Shown one piece after another: positions 12,410-53,012 of a stretch of DNA of 64,000 nucleotides (position 1 is its first letter; each line of letters starts with the position of its first letter). The position numbers and the translations under genes were made by a program. Source of the DNA: an uncultured Pelagibacteraceae bacterium (lineage in GTDB: Bacteria > Pseudomonadota > Alphaproteobacteria > Pelagibacterales > Pelagibacteraceae); NCBI GenBank assembly GCA_902623215.1, contig CACNSS010000002.1, positions 62,001 to 126,000 on the forward strand, in the 5' to 3' direction. Below the pieces are notes generated by a model, which had not been told where the DNA came from, ran no database searches, and worked only from the letters and a program-made list of their open reading frames with translations.

Positions 12410-13741
12410 TTATTTTCCTATACAAAAATCATTAAAAATACTGCCCAAAATCTCCTCCACGTCAACTTTGCCAACAATCATACCTAAATGCCTGATTGCC
12501 AATCTAAGATCCTCAGCAGCCTTATCAAAATCCTTCTTATCATTTTTATTTAGAAATTCTTTTAAATGCTCAACACATTGTATCAAATGTTGTCTATGTC
12601 TCTCTCTTGTAATTAAAATATCTTCTTTAGAAATTAATTTATTTTTTAAACTGTTTTTTATTTTGGAAATTAATTTATCTATATTTAGATTATCTTTTAA
12701 TGAAATTAAAACATGTTCGAATTTTGAAAAATCTTGATCTAGCTTATTTTTTAATAGATCTAATTTATTCAAGACTAAAATGGCATTTCCTTTAAGTAAA
12801 TCACTTAAAAAAGGGCTTAAATTAACACTTTTAGCATCAACCACCACTAATTTTAAATCAGCATTTTCAGCTTTTTTGAAGGATAATTTTATCCCCTTTT
12901 TTTCAATTTCATCTTCTGAGTCTCTTATACCTGCGGTATCTGAAATAATGACAGGATAACCATCTATATTTAAATGTGCCTCAACAACATCTCTTGTAGT
13001 CCCGGCAATTTCAGAAACTATGGCGACTTCCCTATTTGATAAGTTGTTCAATAAGCTTGATTTACCAGCATTGGTTGGTCCTACAATAGCGATCTTAAAA
13101 CCTTCACGAATTATTTCTCCGACTTTTTGATCATCTAAAATTTTATCAATTTCATTGATCACATCCAAAGAATCTTTTTTAATTTTTTTTACATTATCTT
13201 CAGGAAGGTCTTCATCAGGAAAATCTATTTTAGCTTCAACAAATGACAAAAGTTTTAGTAGTTTTACTCTAATTTCATTAAATTTATTTGACGATTTTCC
13301 TTTCATTATTTTCATGGCTTGTGATCTTTGAATTTCAGTTTCAGCAGCAATAAGATCAGCTATGCTCTCAGCTTTTAGCAAATTTATCTTACCATTTTGA
13401 AAAGCAAGCTTTGTAAATTCACCAGGTTCAGCTAGCCTACAATTCTCAATTTTGGCTATCTCATTTTGCACAGCTAAAATTACAGCTTTTCCCCCATGTA
13501 TATGTATCTCAGCCATATCTTCACCTGTGTAGCTCTGTGGTCCAGGAAACCACAATATAATTCCTTCATCGATCAGCTCAGAAGTGTTGATATTGTTTAT
13601 TTTCCTCAATGTTGCTACTCTTGCACTTGGAACTGGTTTTTGAGTGATGGTTTTAATAATTTCAGAAGTGTCTTTACCAGAAATTCTTATAACAGCTATA
13701 CCAGATATGCCAGGACCTGAGGATAAAGCATAAATATTCAT
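12410..13741 (-). CDS. mnmE: tRNA modification GTPase MnmE
   Basis: The 443-residue GTPase partners MnmG in wobble-uridine modification. The N-terminal folate-binding domain (about 1-115) has the starting motif IYALSSGPGISGIAVIRISG and the GEFTKLAFQNGK segment. The G domain shows P-loop GPTNAGKSSLLN, switch II DTAGIRDSEDEIEKKG and NKLD. The C-terminal helical domain ends in the conserved FCIGK, whose cysteine is needed for the modification reaction. The length is normal. It follows the two GT41 genes by only 13 bases on the same strand, so they may be co-transcribed. Confidence 0.98.
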   Translation of the reverse strand: MNIYALSSGPGISGIAVIRISGKDTSEIIKTITQKPVPSARVATLRKINNINTSELIDEGIILWFPGPQSYTGEDMAEIHIHGGKAVILAVQNEIAKIENCRLAEPGEFTKLAFQNGKINLLKAESIADLIAAETEIQRSQAMKIMKGKSSNKFNEIRVKLLKLLSFVEAKIDFPDEDLPEDNVKKIKKDSLDVINEIDKILDDQKVGEIIREGFKIAIVGPTNAGKSSLLNNLSNREVAIVSEIAGTTRDVVEAHLNIDGYPVIISDTAGIRDSEDEIEKKGIKLSFKKAENADLKLVVVDAKSVNLSPFLSDLLKGNAILVLNKLDLLKNKLDQDFSKFEHVLISLKDNLNIDKLISKIKNSLKNKLISKEDILITRERHRQHLIQCVEHLKEFLNKNDKKDFDKAAEDLRLAIRHLGMIVGKVDVEEILGSIFNDFCIGK

Positions 13742-13754
13742 AATATGAAGTAGC

Positions 13755-15437
13755 TTATTTATTTATTTTTTCTAGAGAAGCGTAAAATTGACTGGAAAAT
13801 TTTTTCTTGTCAAATAAAGCTGATTTTAGAGCATTTTCAAAAATTTTCCTTCTTATATTAGCAAGTTTGTCTAAATCAGTACAATATGACACTGCCTTTT
13901 TTATATAATCATCCTCATTTTTGCTTATCAATTCATCCAAGTTCAAATTTGAATTAATTGATTCACCAGCGCGAGAAATAAAATTATATCCTTTAATAGT
14001 TAAAACTGGAACACACATCCATATTGCCTCGAAAGATGTTGTGACACCGTTATAGGGAAAAGTATCTAAAGCAATATCAATTTTTTTATATTCGTTTAAA
14101 TGTTCATTCAAATTTTTTTTAAATTTCTGAAATATTATTGAACCTAAAACACCTTTTTTTTCAAATTTTTCTAATACGTAAGAAGATGAAGCGGTAGCTG
14201 ATGGTGCTAAAATTAATTTAGAATTAGGGATTTGTTTTAATATTGAAGACCAGACATTTATAACACTGTCATTTATTTTTCTAAAATTATTAAAAGAACC
14301 AAATGTAATATATTTATTAACCTTAAATGGCGGCTCAATAAATTCTCTTTTTTCCGAAAAACCAGAATGACAATTCCATATATTTTCTAAATGAATAATC
14401 TTTTCTGAGTAAAGATTTACTTCATTCTTTAAAATTGAATACTTATCGGATATTAAATAATCCATTTGCTCTACTCCTGTGGTATTGTTATATCCACACC
14501 AAGCAACCTGTTTTTTTGCTATTCGATTTTTAATTAAAGAAAGTTTTTGATTAGATGTTATACCCATCAAATCTATAATTATATCAATTTTATCAGATCT
14601 TATTAAATTAATTGCCTCAACATCCTTTAGATTGAAAATATTTCTGCTTGTAGAGGCGTACTTTTTGAACTCCTTAACTGTTTCATCCTCTTTATCATTG
14701 ACGAAATATATAAAAATATTGAATTTTTCTTTGTCATAGTTAGTTAAAACAGTCCTCAAAAAAAAAGTTATACAATGGTTTGATCTTATGTCAGCTGACA
14801 AAAATCCTAAATTGATTTTTTTGTTTTTATTTTCACTTAAATCAAATAATTTTTCTGAGGGATATTTTGGTAATTTACTGTTTAATTTTTTTGAATTTTC
14901 GAGAAAATTTTTTTGATCCCAATCTTTTTTATAACAGTTAAAATATATATAAGTACATAAAGCATCTAAATTTTGATCGTTAAGTTCAATAACTTTTTTC
15001 AAATAATCAATTAAATTATTTAGGTCTAGATTTCGTTTAAATACTTTTATAATAGACTGAGCATGACCTTCATTTTTGTCAAAATATGCTTTATTTTCCT
15101 TAAAATAAGTAAATATTTCATCAAAAATTTTTTCACTAGAGTGAACACCAGACCTAAATTCAAGATCAAATATATCCATTGAAACATTAATAAAATTTTT
15201 TAATGCATGAAGTGCATCTTGAGTTTTTTTTTCTAACAAATACGCTTTTCGAAAATCATTCCTCGATGATTGAAGTATCTCCTTACTACGACTACTTAAA
15301 AATTTGCAGACACCTAGCAAATTCAATAATCCAGAATTTTTATCTTTGTCAGTAATTTTATTTTCAATAATATCTATAATTAAAGAATATTTTTTTTCAT
15401 AAAAAAGTTTTTTTAAGTCTGCTTTATTGCTCTCCAT
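13755..15437 (-). CDS. GT41 (SPINDLY/OGT-like) glycosyltransferase, copy 2
   Basis: The 560-residue protein resembles the catalytic half of O-GlcNAc transferase/SPINDLY (GT41), which moves a sugar from a nucleotide sugar to Ser/Thr of proteins. The N-terminal ~190 residues are helical and could be TPR-like. The catalytic part starts with LGFLSADIRSNHCITFFL, where the histidine matches the OGT GNH motif. It continues with VAWCGYNNTTGVEQMDYLI, FGSFNNFRKIND with the expected UDP-binding lysine, and DTFPYNGVTTSFEAIWM. It lacks a signal peptide, so it should act in the cytoplasm. The adjacent gene (10 bases away) is a same-length paralogue. The acceptor protein is unknown. Confidence 0.82.
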   Translation of the reverse strand: MESNKADLKKLFYEKKYSLIIDIIENKITDKDKNSGLLNLLGVCKFLSSRSKEILQSSRNDFRKAYLLEKKTQDALHALKNFINVSMDIFDLEFRSGVHSSEKIFDEIFTYFKENKAYFDKNEGHAQSIIKVFKRNLDLNNLIDYLKKVIELNDQNLDALCTYIYFNCYKKDWDQKNFLENSKKLNSKLPKYPSEKLFDLSENKNKKINLGFLSADIRSNHCITFFLRTVLTNYDKEKFNIFIYFVNDKEDETVKEFKKYASTSRNIFNLKDVEAINLIRSDKIDIIIDLMGITSNQKLSLIKNRIAKKQVAWCGYNNTTGVEQMDYLISDKYSILKNEVNLYSEKIIHLENIWNCHSGFSEKREFIEPPFKVNKYITFGSFNNFRKINDSVINVWSSILKQIPNSKLILAPSATASSSYVLEKFEKKGVLGSIIFQKFKKNLNEHLNEYKKIDIALDTFPYNGVTTSFEAIWMCVPVLTIKGYNFISRAGESINSNLNLDELISKNEDDYIKKAVSYCTDLDKLANIRRKIFENALKSALFDKKKFSSQFYASLEKINK

Positions 15438-15446
15438 AAATATGAT

Positions 15447-17129
15447 TTAATTATATACTTTTTTTAAGCTAGTAAAAAATCCCTCAGAAAATTTTTTTCC
15501 ATCGAAAAGAGGAGTTTTAATAGCGTTGTCAAAAATATTTTTTCTAATATCGCTCAAATAATTTTTGTTTTCAGCTAAGTATACAGATTTTTCAATATAA
15601 TCTTGTTTATTTTCAGCAATTAATTCCTCAAGTTTTAAGTTTTTGTTTATAGACTCCCCACACCTTGAAATCAGATTATTACCTTTCATTGTTATAACAG
15701 GTACATTCATCCAAATTGCCTCAAAAGAGGTAGTAACACCTGTATATGGAAAAGTATCTAGCGCTATATCAATCTCCTCATAAACATTCAAATGATCTTC
15801 AAATTTTTTTTTAAATGGTATAAATATTATTGAATCATGTACATTATGTTTTCTAAATTTTTCCTTATATATTTCACTTGATATCTGAAAAGATGTTTTT
15901 AATATTAATTTAGAACCTTTAACTTTTTTTAAAATCGACGACCAAACTTCAATAACATTATCATTAATTTTTCTAAAATTATTTAAAGATCCAAAGGTAA
16001 CAAATTTTTTTTTAATTGATGGTGTTGGAATTAATATTCTAGTTTTTTTATAGCCAGGATGGCAGTTCCATATATCAGGCATGTAAATTATTTTTTCAGA
16101 ATAATATTTTTCTTCCTCAGGTTTAATCAAATTTTTGTCTGCAATCAAAAAATCCATTTCATTCAAACCGGTTGTATTAGTATATCCACACCAACTAATT
16201 TGAATGGGAGCTAGACGATTTTTAAACAAGACCAACCGCTGGTCGGACGAAAGACCATTTAGATCAATAATTATGTCAATTTTATCTTTTCTAATCTGAT
16301 TAATAGCATCAATATCTTTTAGGTTTTTAATTCCCAAAGTTTTAAAAATTTTATCTTTAAATTCTCTAATTGTATCATCTTCAACATTATGATTGTTATA
16401 TAGGAAAATATTAAATTGTTTATCATCATAAGAATTTATTATTGTTTTTAAAAAATAAGCGACTGAATGTTTGCCTTTAATATCCGACGACAAAAATGCC
16501 AAATTTATTTTATCATTTTTAATATTAATAATCTTAGTTAATTTTCCTGGATCATAAACTATAAGTTTATCGTTAATTTTTTTTGTGTGGTTAAAATAGT
16601 CAATTTGACCCCATTTATTATTATAAAGATTATGAAAAATATACGCTGCAAAAGCGTCAGGATCTGAATTCAAACTAATAATTTTCTCATAAATTTTAAT
16701 AACCGCATCGACGTTAGAAATACGTTTAATTATCTTTACCAATGCCCAGAGTATGTCTGGATTATTTTCCCATACATCTCTATTTTTATTATAAATAGAA
16801 AAAACATTATCAAAAAAACTTTTTTCTAATTCATGTCCATTGTCTATAAATTCATTATCAAAAAAAATTACTGATGAATTTATTAAATTTTTAAGTGGAT
16901 CAGACATTTTTTTAATATCTGTTTCTTTTAAACATGAATTTTTAAAATCATTGATAGCAAGCTTTAATGAGGTGTTAGATTTATCTGATAACATTCTAGA
17001 TACACCACATAAATTTAATATTCCTGAAGTTTTTTGATCTTCTTTGAGTTTATTTTCAATTATAGAAACAATTAAAGAATATTTTTTCTCTTTTAATAAC
17101 TTTAAAAAATTAATTTTTTCTTCACTCAT
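15447..17129 (-). CDS. GT41 (SPINDLY/OGT-like) glycosyltransferase, copy 1
   Basis: This is a 560-residue paralogue of the next gene downstream, alignable from end to end. It opens with KINFLKLLKEKKYSLIVSIIENKL, where copy 2 has ADLKKLFYEKKYSLIIDIIENK. The catalytic blocks are LAFLSSDIKGKHSVAYFL, ISWCGYTNTTGLNEMDFLIA, FGSLNNFRKINDNVIEVWSS and DTFPYTGVTTSFEAIWM, so the presumed catalytic histidine and lysine are kept. It is the first gene of the GT41-GT41-mnmE run and is preceded by a ~100-base AT-rich gap after rho. Substrates are unknown. Retention of key residues in both copies argues against decay. Confidence 0.82.
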   Translation of the reverse strand: MSEEKINFLKLLKEKKYSLIVSIIENKLKEDQKTSGILNLCGVSRMLSDKSNTSLKLAINDFKNSCLKETDIKKMSDPLKNLINSSVIFFDNEFIDNGHELEKSFFDNVFSIYNKNRDVWENNPDILWALVKIIKRISNVDAVIKIYEKIISLNSDPDAFAAYIFHNLYNNKWGQIDYFNHTKKINDKLIVYDPGKLTKIINIKNDKINLAFLSSDIKGKHSVAYFLKTIINSYDDKQFNIFLYNNHNVEDDTIREFKDKIFKTLGIKNLKDIDAINQIRKDKIDIIIDLNGLSSDQRLVLFKNRLAPIQISWCGYTNTTGLNEMDFLIADKNLIKPEEEKYYSEKIIYMPDIWNCHPGYKKTRILIPTPSIKKKFVTFGSLNNFRKINDNVIEVWSSILKKVKGSKLILKTSFQISSEIYKEKFRKHNVHDSIIFIPFKKKFEDHLNVYEEIDIALDTFPYTGVTTSFEAIWMNVPVITMKGNNLISRCGESINKNLKLEELIAENKQDYIEKSVYLAENKNYLSDIRKNIFDNAIKTPLFDGKKFSEGFFTSLKKVYN

Positions 17130-17230
17130 AATGTCAAAATATTTTTTATAAATAATGACATTATTATTTTTTTTATAGAAAAATAGTTTTTTTTAACAAT
17201 TCTGTGCTTTTAAATATATTACAAGCAGAT

Positions 17231-18499
17231 TTATGATGGTTTATTCATCGAATTAAAAAACTCAGAATTATTTTTTGTGTCTTTTAATTTTGAACTTATA
17301 AATTCGATAGCATCCATAGTTCCCATTGGCGCAATAATTCTTCTCAAGACATTCATTTTCTGTAGATCATTCTTATCAAACAAAAGCTCTTCTCTTCTGG
17401 TACCAGATTTAGTTATATCAATCGCAGGGTAGATTCTTTTATCAGCAATTTTTCTATCTAATACTGTTTCACTGTTTCCTGTTCCCTTAAATTCCTCAAA
17501 AATTACTTCATCCATTCTGCTACCAGTATCTATTAAAGCAGTCGAAATAATTGTTAGTGAGCCTCCTTCTTCAATATTTCTAGCTGCTCCAAAAAATCTT
17601 TTTGGTCTTTGTAAAGCATTAGCATCCACTCCCCCAGTTAAGACCTTACCTGAACTTGGTATGACAGCATTATAAGCTCGTCCTAATCTTGTAATTGAGT
17701 CTAACAATATAACAACATCTTTTTTATGTTCTGTTAATCTTTTTGCTTTTTCAATAACCATTTCAGCTACCGCAACATGACGCTGTGCTGGTTCGTCAAA
17801 AGTAGAACTTATGACTTCCCCCTTAACTGTTCTTTGCATATCAGTTACTTCTTCAGGTCTTTCATCAATAAGCAAAACAATCAAATAACATTCTGGATAG
17901 TTTTTAGCGATTGAATTAGCTATGCTTTGTAAAATCATAGTTTTACCTGCTTTTGGTGGTGAAATAATTATCGATCTTTGACCTTTTCCAATTGGACTAA
18001 CTAAATCGATTAACCTCGGAGTTAAATCTTGTTTTTTATCAGGCTTTGTAACTTCTACCTCCATGACTAATTGCTTATCAGGATAAAGTGGGGTTAAGTT
18101 ATCAAATGCTATTTTGTGTCTAGATTTATCTGGTTCCTCAAAATTGATCTTGCTAACTTGAAGTAAAGCAAAATATCTTTCGCCTTCTTTTGGTGCTCTT
18201 ACCGGTCCCTCTACAGTATCACCAGTTCTTAAACCAAATTTTCTAATCTGACTTGGACTTACATAAATATCATCCGGTCCTGGTAGATAATTTGACTCCA
18301 TTGCTCTCAAAAAACCAAAACCGTCTTGTAACAATTGGAGAACACCAGCTCCGGTGATCTCCTCTTTCTCTGCAACTTTTTTCAAAATTGCAAATAATAT
18401 TTCTTGCTTTCTTAGTGTGCTGGCATTTTCTATACCCAATTCTTCTGCTTGAGTAATTAACTGTTCTGACGATTTGAGTTTTAGTTCTTGTATGTTCAT
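17231..18499 (-). CDS. rho: Transcription termination factor Rho
   Basis: The 422-residue hexameric RNA helicase ends transcription. The N-terminal helical and cold-shock-like RNA-binding domains are visible ([18 protein letters not shown], then [22 protein letters not shown]). The ATPase core has Walker [16 protein letters not shown], the segment [15 protein letters not shown], and Walker [17 protein letters not shown]. The Q-loop/R-loop region [20 protein letters not shown] is intact. It follows hemE-hemH-hemJ on the same strand. A neighbourhood poor in intrinsic terminators fits reliance on Rho. Confidence 0.98.
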
Positions 18500-37189: not shown

Positions 37190-37216
37190 ATTTTACTATA
37201 ACACAGTTAATATTGC

Positions 37217-37245
37217 TTGAATAAAAAATTACAGCTTAATATACT
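37217..37245 (+). promoter_or_regulatory. Promoter of tRNA-Gly
   Basis: TTGAAT (37217-37222) and TATACT (37240-37245) are spaced by exactly 17 bases. The -10 element ends ten bases before the mature tRNA 5' end. This is a good sigma-70 match directly in front of a stable RNA gene. Confidence 0.6.
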
Positions 37246-37254
37246 GTCTCATGT

Positions 37255-37329
37255 GCGGGCATAGCTCAGTGGTAGAGCGTCTCGTTGCCAACGAGAAGGT
37301 CGAGGGTTCGACCCCCTTTGCCCGCTCCA
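37255..37329 (+). tRNA. tRNA-Gly (anticodon GCC)
   Basis: The cloverleaf can be folded by eye. Acceptor GCGGGCA pairs with TGCCCGC, the D stem is GCTC/GAGC, and the anticodon arm is TCTCG-TTGCCAA-CGAGA with anticodon GCC. The T arm is GAGGG-TTCGACC-CCCTT. The CCA end is genome-encoded (37327-37329). It reads GGC/GGU glycine codons. It is the only RNA gene I found in the window. Confidence 0.97.
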
Positions 37330-37580
37330 AAAATTTATAGCATATTAAAATTTGAATTAATGTTTAGATGAATATTAATCATTCTTATGCAATGGTTAAT
37401 TAGTATGAGCTACATCAGCCTTTTAAACTTGTCAATTAAATTGAAATATAAAGATATTGCATTTTATAAAGACTGAAAACCCCTTTAATTATTGTGGAGG
37501 ACAAGGTGTTGAGTTTGTATCTAAAAATTTTCTTGGGAAAAAGTTACTAATGATTTATATAATTTGATATAAATTTAAAT
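37330..37580. other. Gene-poor spacer, possibly with a short peptide or gene remnant
   Basis: This is a 251-base gap between tRNA-Gly and the pterin dehydratase. No RNA fold, terminator or strong promoter is evident. A short + strand frame ending at about 37566 reads NPFNYCGGQGVEFVSKNFLGKK and looks more protein-like than random AT-rich DNA. It lacks a convincing start, so it may be a decayed gene end. Confidence 0.3.
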
Positions 37581-51658: not shown

Positions 51659-52504
51659 ATGATTTTAATTGATGGAAAAAAAGAAGCTGCATTATTAAGA
51701 GAAAAGCTCAAAAAAGAAGTCTCTGAACTTAAATCAAAATATAATAAAGTTCCTGGTCTGTCTGTAATCTTAATTGGAGATTTAACTCCAAGTCAAATTT
51801 ATGTAAGAAATAAAGAAAAATCAGCAAATGAGGTTGGACTAAAGTCCGAAGTAATAAAATATCCCGATAGCGTGGAAGAAAAAGTAATTTTAGAAAAAAT
51901 AAATGAATTAAATAATGATAAAAGTGTTTCTGGTATATTAGTACAATTACCTTTGCCAAAACATATAGATAAAAAGAAAGTTATTGAAGCGATTGATCAC
52001 ACAAAAGATGTTGATGGATTTCACCCTATAAATGTCGGCAATCTTTCTTCTGGTTATGAAAGTTCAGTACCTTGTACTCCTCTAGGATGCTACTTATTAA
52101 TTAAAAAATTTGAACCGAATTTAAGTGGTAAAAAAGCTGTTGTAATAGGTAGATCGAATTTAAATGGCAAACCAATGACACAACTTCTTTTGAAAGAAAA
52201 CTGCACTGTAACAATAACTCATTCAAAAACTAAAGATTTAAAAGCTGAATGCTTAGAGGCAGATATTGTTGTTGCTGCCGTCGGTATTCCTGAGTTGGTA
52301 AAAGGAGATTGGGTTAAAAAAGATGCAATTGTGATTGATGTAGGTATTAATAAAACTGAAAAGGGAATTGTTGGTGATGTTGCATTTGATGAAGTTTCAA
52401 AAAATGCAAAAGCCCTTACGCCAGTTCCGGGTGGTGTTGGTCCAATGACAATTGCGTGTTTGCTTAAAAATACGATTGACTGTTTCAAAAGATCGCAAAT
52501 TTAA
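51659..52504 (+). CDS. folD: Methylenetetrahydrofolate dehydrogenase/cyclohydrolase
   Basis: The 281-residue bifunctional enzyme interconverts methylene-, methenyl- and formyl-tetrahydrofolate. Signatures are GLSVILIGDLTPSQIYVRNKEKSANEVGL with the catalytic YxxxK, GILVQLPLPKHIDKKKV, DVDGFHPINVGNL and PCTPLGCYLL. The NADP-binding loop is VVIGRSNLNGKPMTQLLL, and the C-terminal LTPVPGGVGPMTIACLL is diagnostic. It supplies formyl-THF for PurH. Confidence 0.98.
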   Translation: MILIDGKKEAALLREKLKKEVSELKSKYNKVPGLSVILIGDLTPSQIYVRNKEKSANEVGLKSEVIKYPDSVEEKVILEKINELNNDKSVSGILVQLPLPKHIDKKKVIEAIDHTKDVDGFHPINVGNLSSGYESSVPCTPLGCYLLIKKFEPNLSGKKAVVIGRSNLNGKPMTQLLLKENCTVTITHSKTKDLKAECLEADIVVAAVGIPELVKGDWVKKDAIVIDVGINKTEKGIVGDVAFDEVSKNAKALTPVPGGVGPMTIACLLKNTIDCFKRSQI

Positions 52505-52541
52505 TATTTAAATCATTAAAAAATTTTTGGTAAACTAAGTT

Positions 52542-52745
52542 ATGAGAAAGCCCAAATACCCATATAGAATTTTGATTATTATGGCTATACTTACCATACC
52601 TCCGATTGGAGCAACTCAACTTGGTTGGTATCTATACGACCAACAAACTGGATTTGATTATGGTATGATTGTTGGAACTTTTTCAGTAATATTAGCAGCA
52701 TGGCTTATGTACGAAAAAAATTGGAGAGAGGAAGATGAGGACTAA
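52542..52745 (+). CDS. Small two-helix membrane protein
   Basis: The 67-residue protein has two hydrophobic segments (YRILIIMAILTIPPIGATQLGWYLY and YGMIVGTFSVILAAWLMYE) and an acidic tail (REEDED). I do not recognise a family. Its frame is clean and it lies four bases before the SHOCT gene, so the two probably form an operon. No function can be assigned. Confidence 0.6.
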   Translation: MRKPKYPYRILIIMAILTIPPIGATQLGWYLYDQQTGFDYGMIVGTFSVILAAWLMYEKNWREEDED

Positions 52746-52748
52746 TTA

Positions 52749-53012
52749 ATGGAAAAAATTATCTTTCTTGGTTTGGTAATACCAATTTTTGGATTTGTTT
52801 TATATCTTGGCGCAACTGCAATAATGGATGGATTTAGTGCCAAAAGTGCAAATAAAATAAATGAAAATTCTGATAATGAAAAAATTGATCCTCCTGTGGT
52901 TGATGAAGATAGTTTAAGTTATGAGCTTGAAAAATTAAATAAACTTTTAAAAGATGGAGTTTTAACCCAGGAAGAATTTGAGAAAGCAAAAAGAAAAATT
53001 TTAGACAACTAA
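52749..53012 (+). CDS. SHOCT domain membrane protein
   Basis: The 87-residue protein has one N-terminal membrane helix (IIFLGLVIPIFGFVLYLGATAIM), an acidic linker and a C-terminal SHOCT domain (LEKLNKLLKDGVLTQEEFEKAKRKIL). SHOCT is a short helical hairpin thought to mediate oligomerisation or protein contacts. The domain match is clear; the role is not known. It converges on the MBL-fold gene with a four-base overlap. Confidence 0.85.
   Translation: MEKIIFLGLVIPIFGFVLYLGATAIMDGFSAKSANKINENSDNEKIDPPVVDEDSLSYELEKLNKLLKDGVLTQEEFEKAKRKILDN

Follow-up and report, generated by a model that had tools for sequence, protein, structure and literature searches.

GT41 genes at a variable site between rho and mnmE in Pelagibacter: candidate cytoplasmic protein O-glycosyltransferases

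We analysed a stretch of 64,000 nucleotides, called the window below, from an uncultured Pelagibacteraceae bacterium (assembly GCA_902623215.1, contig CACNSS010000002.1; in our genome set G000, contig 2, 62001-126000; genome 78% complete), in which two genes of glycosyltransferase family 41 (GT41), here named GT1 and GT2, lie between rho and mnmE. We place this genome in Pelagibacter (SAR11) by its named relatives and the genes it carries. The best explanation as a whole, to which we give a probability of about 0.6, is that the two genes encode active cytoplasmic protein O-glycosyltransferases carried at an exchangeable cargo site of Pelagibacter. In this explanation the family, the intact active site, the predicted fold, purifying selection, the variation of the cargo site and the mosaic identity between strains were computed, and enzymatic activity, donor, acceptor, co-transcription and the selective reason are proposed on top of them. 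An earlier note on this DNA had described two GT41 paralogues of 560 residues at 13755-17129, considerably diverged and inserted into a conserved housekeeping block. All of this held: the coordinates, lengths and family (PF13844) were confirmed, the measured identity of the two copies is 49%, and the flanks are syntenic in relatives.

Family, predicted fold and active site

Both proteins matched PF13844 (Glyco_transf_41; cut-off 25), with 157.8 bits (4e-46) for GT1 and 157.3 bits (6e-46) for GT2. The best match in PDB was SPINDLY (SPY), a protein O-fucosyltransferase of Arabidopsis that also belongs to GT41 (7.3e-53 for GT1 and 2.8e-57 for GT2), followed by TtOGT, human OGT and XcOGT. AlphaFold2 models were built with the proteins of the window and of close loci as input, and they were confident for both GT2 (predicted local distance difference test, pLDDT, 85.3; predicted template modelling score, pTM, 0.83) and GT1 (pLDDT 84.0, pTM 0.80). 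In the predicted fold the N-terminal domain (about residues 8-188) is made of helices only; a GT-B domain with two lobes comes after it, and the intervening domain is absent. The top Foldseek match of both models was SPY, full-length and with probability 1.00 (GT2, 1.5e-29, query template modelling score, TMq, up to 0.79; GT1, 3.2e-27, TMq up to 0.74), and the runner-up was TtOGT in both cases. Structure prediction, which the earlier note had suggested as a check, thus gave confident GT-B models with SPY closest and the catalytic residues retained.

In a tree of the catalytic domains, made by a quick method with support from the Shimodaira-Hasegawa-like approximate likelihood ratio test (SH-aLRT) alone, human OGT and a group of Pelagibacter GT41 proteins with tetratricopeptide repeats (TPR), which we call class B, were split from SPY, TtOGT and the relatives of GT1 and GT2 (SH-aLRT 96). 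The latter, called class A, formed a clade of their own on the SPY/TtOGT side. Full-length class A matches were confined to the genus of the window in a search of 147 genomes of the order. Class A is thus Pelagibacter-specific in this search. With E <= 1e-20 as threshold, GT41 as a family was found in 98 of 299 phylum-level genomes, so that it is common in bacteria as judged from sequence matches. GT1 and GT2 are classed as members of GT41 and are assigned neither to OGT nor to SPY.

The likeness to SPY (PDB 7y4i and 8dti) extends from the top sequence and fold match to the GT-B architecture without an intervening domain and to the active site. Mapped in AtSPY numbering (PMC9715652), the equivalents of D491, H495, N661, K665, H728, Y744 and T748 are all kept in GT1 and GT2. 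The catalytic histidine is H221 in both copies (H558 in OGT, H495 in SPY) and the lysine is K387 in both (K842 in OGT, K665 in SPY). Among the 24 class A proteins compared, H495 and K665 are present in 24, T748 and N661 in 23, S496 and H728 in 22 and Y744 in 21; at the position of S496, GT2 has Ser and GT1 has Cys. SPY mutants of K665 and H495 are inactive, and Y744, at the site of C917 in OGT, was proposed to clash with GlcNAc (PMC9715652). This OGT site, where a small residue admits GlcNAc, is occupied by Tyr in both copies and in 21 of the 24 class A proteins. XcOGT and TtOGT also have Tyr there, and their O-GlcNAc activity on bacterial proteins was not demonstrated. The presumed catalytic His and UDP-binding Lys of the earlier note are therefore in place, and the loss of catalytic residues, which it had named as a refutation, was not found in either copy.

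The differences from the known enzymes are also clear. GT1 and GT2 are about 24% identical to SPY over the fold alignment, their N-terminal repeat domain is shorter and invisible to Pfam as TPR, class A forms a separate clade and GT1 has Cys at S496. TtOGT is a compact bacterial GT41 protein of similar length, on the same side of the tree and with Tyr at the Y744 position, but its identity over the fold alignment is only about 19-20%, and it belongs to a proposed system of O-GlcNAc modification that includes an O-GlcNAcase, with no in vitro activity shown for TtOGT itself. Human OGT and class B share the GT41 catalytic core with its His and Lys, but they lie on the other branch, and OGT has both Cys917 and the intervening domain; class B further differs from class A by clear TPR repeats, by its antisense orientation at rho-mnmE and by being located mostly between tsaD and an EVE-domain gene. 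Thus, of the label O-GlcNAc-transferase-like that the earlier note had used, the GT41 family and the catalytic set stand, whereas sequence, fold and tree side with SPINDLY and TtOGT, and Tyr replaces C917 of OGT.

The rho-mnmE cargo site and probable exchange between strains

GT1 and GT2 are intact open reading frames (ORFs) started by ATG, in the order rho-GT2-GT1-mnmE and all in the same direction (Table 1). The rho-GT2 gap measures 101 bp, GT2 and GT1 are 9 bp apart, and mnmE follows GT1 after 13 bp; this spacing is compatible with a GT2-GT1-mnmE transcript, if the genes are indeed co-transcribed. Against the orthologues in L113 (single amplified genome, SAG, AG-913-E11), which are 94-95% identical in amino acids, the ratio of nonsynonymous to synonymous divergence (dN/dS) is about 0.10 for GT1 and about 0.11 for GT2. 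Both genes evolve under purifying selection, and chance is excluded as the source of the ORFs because the orthologues of both copies show a dN/dS of about 0.1. The genes on both sides (hemE, hemH, hemJ and rho; mnmE, mnmG, rsmG, parA and parB) are housekeeping genes that are syntenic across relatives.

Table 1. Coordinates of the gene pair, its borders and its leader in the window
Feature	Position	Strand	Description
GT2	15447..17129	(-)	class A GT41, 560 aa; helical-repeat domain residues 1-190, GT-B catalytic domain about 205-560
GT2 motifs			D216, H221, K387, H446; TFPY-TGVTT loop near 459-467
GT1	13755..15437	(-)	class A GT41, 560 aa; architecture as GT2; Cys at SPY S496 position
rho	17231..18499	(-)	conserved upstream border of cargo site
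mnmE	12410..13741	(-)	conserved downstream border of cargo site
rho-GT2 leader	17130..17230	(-)	A+T-rich; identity 100% with L114, 95% with L113, 81% with L115

To compare strains, as the earlier note had advised, we used 120 Pelagibacter genomes with a completeness of 80% or more, with the genome of the window counted among them although it is less complete. In 109 of them rho and mnmE were on one contig and in the same direction. The interval was empty (45-124 bp) in 29 of these 109 genomes and held cargo in the other 80, mostly of about 0.9, 1.7, 2.6 or 3.5 kb and at most 4.6 kb. The insertion was thus confirmed, but it sits at a recurrent cargo site and is not a one-off. Cargo families were obtained by clustering, with one or few members of each cluster scanned by Pfam. 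Counted by genome, small sulfotransferases (PF00685) occur in 51, class A GT41 in 21, TPR-sulfotransferases (PF13469) in 15 and class B in three; a 2-oxoglutarate oxygenase, a glycosyltransferase of family 2, a carbamoyltransferase and others were singletons. The type of cargo goes with its orientation: class A genes are co-directional with rho and mnmE in 27 of 27 cases, small sulfotransferases are antisense in 58 of 58, and class B is antisense as well. No mobility genes were recognised in the rho-mnmE cargo. In one TPR-sulfotransferase the catalytic part matches protein-tyrosine sulfotransferase 1 (1.4e-7), which suggests that the site has repeatedly received transferases that have a repeat domain and possibly modify proteins.

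Two class A genes are present in six genomes, including that of the window, and one of these 12 genes is truncated (in G120). The genes of the window had been called tandem, but reading this as a simple local duplication in this lineage is unsupported, since the copies are not sisters in the tree: GT2 groups with L113_1, L115, G060, G088, L116 and L117, and GT1 with L113_2 and G063 and more loosely with G116 and L024. An old duplication followed by differential loss would yield the same tree, and the argument for exchange is therefore carried by the mosaic identity between strains. In comparison with L114, hemE-hemJ are 81-85% identical and rho, the leader and GT2 95-100%. In comparison with L115, hemE-rho are 97-99% identical, the leader 81%, GT2 86% and mnmE 91%, and GT1 is missing. 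In comparison with L113, rho-GT2-GT1 are 94-96% identical and mnmE 86%, with the drop within the 5' part of mnmE near 13400-13600. Synonymous divergence (dS) follows the same pattern, with 0.05 for hemE and 0.68 for GT2 against L115, and 0.56 for hemE, 0.69 for mnmE, 0.26 for GT2 and 0.20 for GT1 against L113. Because GT1 and GT2 are not each other's closest relatives in the tree and the identity to other strains changes sharply in or close to rho and mnmE, the cargo was most likely exchanged via homologous recombination in the flanks. On the tree of the flanks, which are short and give few supported branches, the presence of class A changes at least 12 times.

Exchange of this kind has precedents in the replacement flexible genomic islands and hypervariable region 2 (HVR2) of Pelagibacter, where strains replace decoration genes through homologous recombination in the conserved sequence on either side (PMC4033161, PMC4053759). 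At rho-mnmE, too, the same site holds differing cargo, and no mobility genes were recognised there. The islands are, however, large multi-gene clusters located by rRNA genes, whereas here one to three genes occupy a small intergenic site, several housekeeping junctions are used and the cargo type fixes the orientation.

We also considered other origins and roles. A phage origin was not supported, as GT2 had no match in 50,697 phage records and none in IMG/VR; a search with the alignment in place of GT2 gave one distant GT41 protein, in a viral contig of 169 kb. Likewise, PADLOC gave no match that would indicate a defence system.

In the rho-GT2 leader, promoter-like matches were no better than in shuffled sequences and no terminator-like site was found. 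An inverted repeat, AATGTCA / TGACATT, lies at 17130-17160, directly upstream of the GT2 start; it is intact in L114, has one arm altered in L113 and L115 and is unrecognisable in L116 and L117. It is a possible operator candidate.

Proposed function and rival explanations

We propose, in line with the cytoplasmic protein O-glycosylation considered in the earlier note, that GT1 and GT2 would be soluble, cytoplasmic, active GT41 enzymes. The acceptor, a protein, would be bound by the N-terminal helical-repeat domain, and the GT-B domain at the C-terminus would transfer one sugar residue from a nucleotide sugar to Ser or Thr by the substrate-assisted chemistry of SPINDLY and OGT. As donor, a small hexose seems likelier than UDP-GlcNAc, with GDP-L-fucose as the first choice and a UDP-hexose as the second. 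The two copies probably serve different acceptors or acceptor regions. Strains would gain, lose and swap the rho-mnmE cargo (GT41 genes, sulfotransferases and TPR-sulfotransferases) through homologous recombination in the conserved flanks, and would likely benefit from varying, under pressure from phages or grazers, a modified protein that is probably exposed at the surface.

The possibility of GDP-fucose as donor is in line with the genome of the window, which has gmd (509 bits, over the cut-off) and an adjoining gene resembling GDP-L-fucose synthase (fcl-like; 392 bits, under the strict cut-off of 500). Both genes are present in 16 of the 21 genomes whose rho-mnmE site holds class A and in 39 of the 88 others (p 0.014). 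We nevertheless dropped the inference of the donor from co-occurring pathways, as the enrichment of gmd and fcl is not robust and neuB is not enriched.

As to the acceptors, GT1 and GT2 are 38% identical in the N-terminal and 56% in the catalytic domains. This would be expected if the acceptors differ, as the earlier note had supposed, and that is plausible; a generally faster-evolving domain would do likewise. One possible lead is in another insert, that of L197, where a class A GT41 gene is accompanied by a sulfotransferase, a TPR-glycosyltransferase and a gene similar to type IV pilins (Pfam N_methyl, L197:9418-9933), whose product may be an acceptor. A pilin as acceptor was kept as a lead only, since the pilin genes of L225, L226 and L234 had no GT41 neighbour among the ORFs examined.

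Several observations weigh against the proposed function. The activity, donor and acceptor of GT1 and GT2 are predictions from sequence and models, and the genomes compared are incomplete SAGs and metagenome-assembled genomes. The Pfam TPR models were silent on the N-terminal domain, for which AlphaFold2 predicts a helical repeat that aligns with SPY. GT1 has Cys at the S496 position, where an Ala mutant greatly weakens SPY. The enrichment of gmd and fcl vanishes when the comparison is limited to the few independent pairs that the flank tree offers, and gmd, fcl or both are missing from five class A genomes. The exchange is harder to place at its upstream junction than at its downstream one, because rho evolves slowly in all strains. 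Finally, decayed class A genes lie beside intact copies in two relatives: the first copy of L202 (G253:C3:58802-60304) has 14 internal stops, and the second copy at G120:C2:187413-189069 is truncated. Sporadic frameshifted copies in relatives had been named beforehand as a sign against function, and decayed copies do occur; the copies of the window are not thereby dead, and, on sequence grounds, the decay in relatives shows turnover of accessory genes.

Among the other explanations, the one that deserves most attention, although we regard it as unlikely, is that GT1 and GT2 would be ordinary decoration glycosyltransferases, acting on surface glycans or on some other acceptor that is not a protein, the site being shared with sulfotransferases for glycan decoration. 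The cargo here and at other sites (sulfotransferases, glycosyltransferases of families 2 and 4, FkbM methyltransferases and a carbamoyltransferase) is typical of such decoration, and surface glycans are encoded in the hypervariable regions of SAR11. However, the acceptors of characterised GT41 enzymes are polypeptides, and a repeat domain is also part of the TPR-sulfotransferases, with their catalytic resemblance to a protein-tyrosine sulfotransferase. It is rather doubtful that GT1 and GT2 are true O-GlcNAc transferases. Here the shared family, the conserved Lys and His of OGT and the class A genomes without gmd and/or fcl agree with such a function, and UDP-GlcNAc is on hand in any peptidoglycan-bearing bacterium; yet tree and fold place class A with SPY and TtOGT, apart from OGT and class B, and UDP-GlcNAc is disfavoured as donor because of Tyr at the C917 position, with its proposed clash, and because XcOGT and TtOGT with the same Tyr are without shown O-GlcNAc activity on bacterial proteins.

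Transfer of a nonulosonic acid of the pseudaminic or legionaminic type onto an acceptor other than flagellin seems improbable. This explanation is modelled on FlmG of Caulobacter, a soluble cytoplasmic flagellin O-glycosyltransferase, likewise alphaproteobacterial, which by description resembles GT1 and GT2 in having an acceptor-binding N-terminal (TPR) domain and a C-terminal glycosyltransferase domain. Genes similar to neuB occur in 95 of the 120 Pelagibacter genomes, that of the window among them, but they are not enriched with class A (14 of 21 genomes versus 72 of 88), seven class A genomes are without neuB, and the pseudaminic acid donor of FlmG is not linked to class A. Its acceptor is not found either: the earlier note saw no flagellar genes in view, and with Flagellin_N we detected flagellin in 0 of 120 Pelagibacter genomes and in the positive controls. 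That the genes are selfish or decaying accessory genes with no current function is very improbable given dN/dS of about 0.1 in both copies, His and Lys in 24 of 24 proteins, the orientation fixed in 27 of 27 cases and no mobility gene recognised in the cargo, even if presence is patchy and copies in G253 and G120 are decayed. We give still less credit to N-glycosyltransferases of the HMW1C type that modify Asn: GT2 has a weak NCBIfam NGTferase match and matches HMW1C-like structures at 1e-11, but the former, at 64 bits against a curated cut-off of 1000, is far weaker than the match to SPY, and GT1 has no match.

SAR11 bacteria are among the most abundant marine cell groups and have streamlined genomes, so genes that are under selection and swapped at fixed sites likely matter for survival. 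If GT1 and GT2 have the proposed activity, protein O-glycosylation would be a strain-variable trait in Pelagibacter, possibly as O-fucosylation of the SPINDLY type, which to our knowledge occurs in eukaryotes only. Since one or two genes at a defined locus would underlie the trait, carriers of the cargo can be compared directly with strains that lack it, for instance in phage sensitivity. We found no literature on GT41, TPR-sulfotransferases or protein O-glycosylation in SAR11, which is weak evidence of novelty, as preprints were outside the search and few subscription papers were covered. As far as this literature shows, class A is new, and above all the swap site with its fixed cargo orientation and its mixed cargo of glycosyltransferases and sulfotransferases.

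GT41 and other transferase genes at further sites in the genus

Class B TPR-GT41 genes (about 650 aa) were observed between tsaD and the EVE-domain gene in L126, L127, L128, L133 and L134. Class A genes were also observed elsewhere, at the tsaD site in L196 and between a LON-domain gene and phhB in L197. A divergent group, class C (about 555 aa; L126:7118-8788, L129:9240-10904, L131:9484-11151 and L132:7612-9291), lies near or after folD, in several genomes beside a short-chain dehydrogenase/reductase (SDR) gene. The window itself has no GT41 gene at the tsaD/EVE junction (47530), after folD (52504-53009) or at LON-phhB. Its LON-phhB interval (37190-37580) contains a tRNA-Gly gene (37255-37329) and no cargo. 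In relatives (L197, L205, L206, L211, L215, L221, L224 and L228-L232) the LON-phhB gap ranges from about 150 to 5357 bp, and its cargo includes sulfotransferases, TPR proteins, glycosyltransferases of family 4 and FkbM methyltransferases, besides the class A gene of L197.

Small sites stocked with single transferases thus seem to be a wider feature of the genus, as judged from sites that were partly sampled. One could speculate, tentatively and with low expectation, that dispersed swap sites (rho-mnmE, tsaD-EVE, folD-SDR and LON-tRNAGly-phhB) hold interchangeable repeat-domain transferases, namely GT41 enzymes of SPY-like and OGT-like kind and TPR-sulfotransferases, that exchange of a single gene re-decorates exported proteins modified in the cytoplasm, such as pilins, and that bacterial protein O-fucosylation is one of the modifications. 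In the class C proteins the active site is changed, with Phe in place of Asp491, Gln in place of Asn661 and Asn in place of Thr748, and these proteins may be inactive or of different chemistry.

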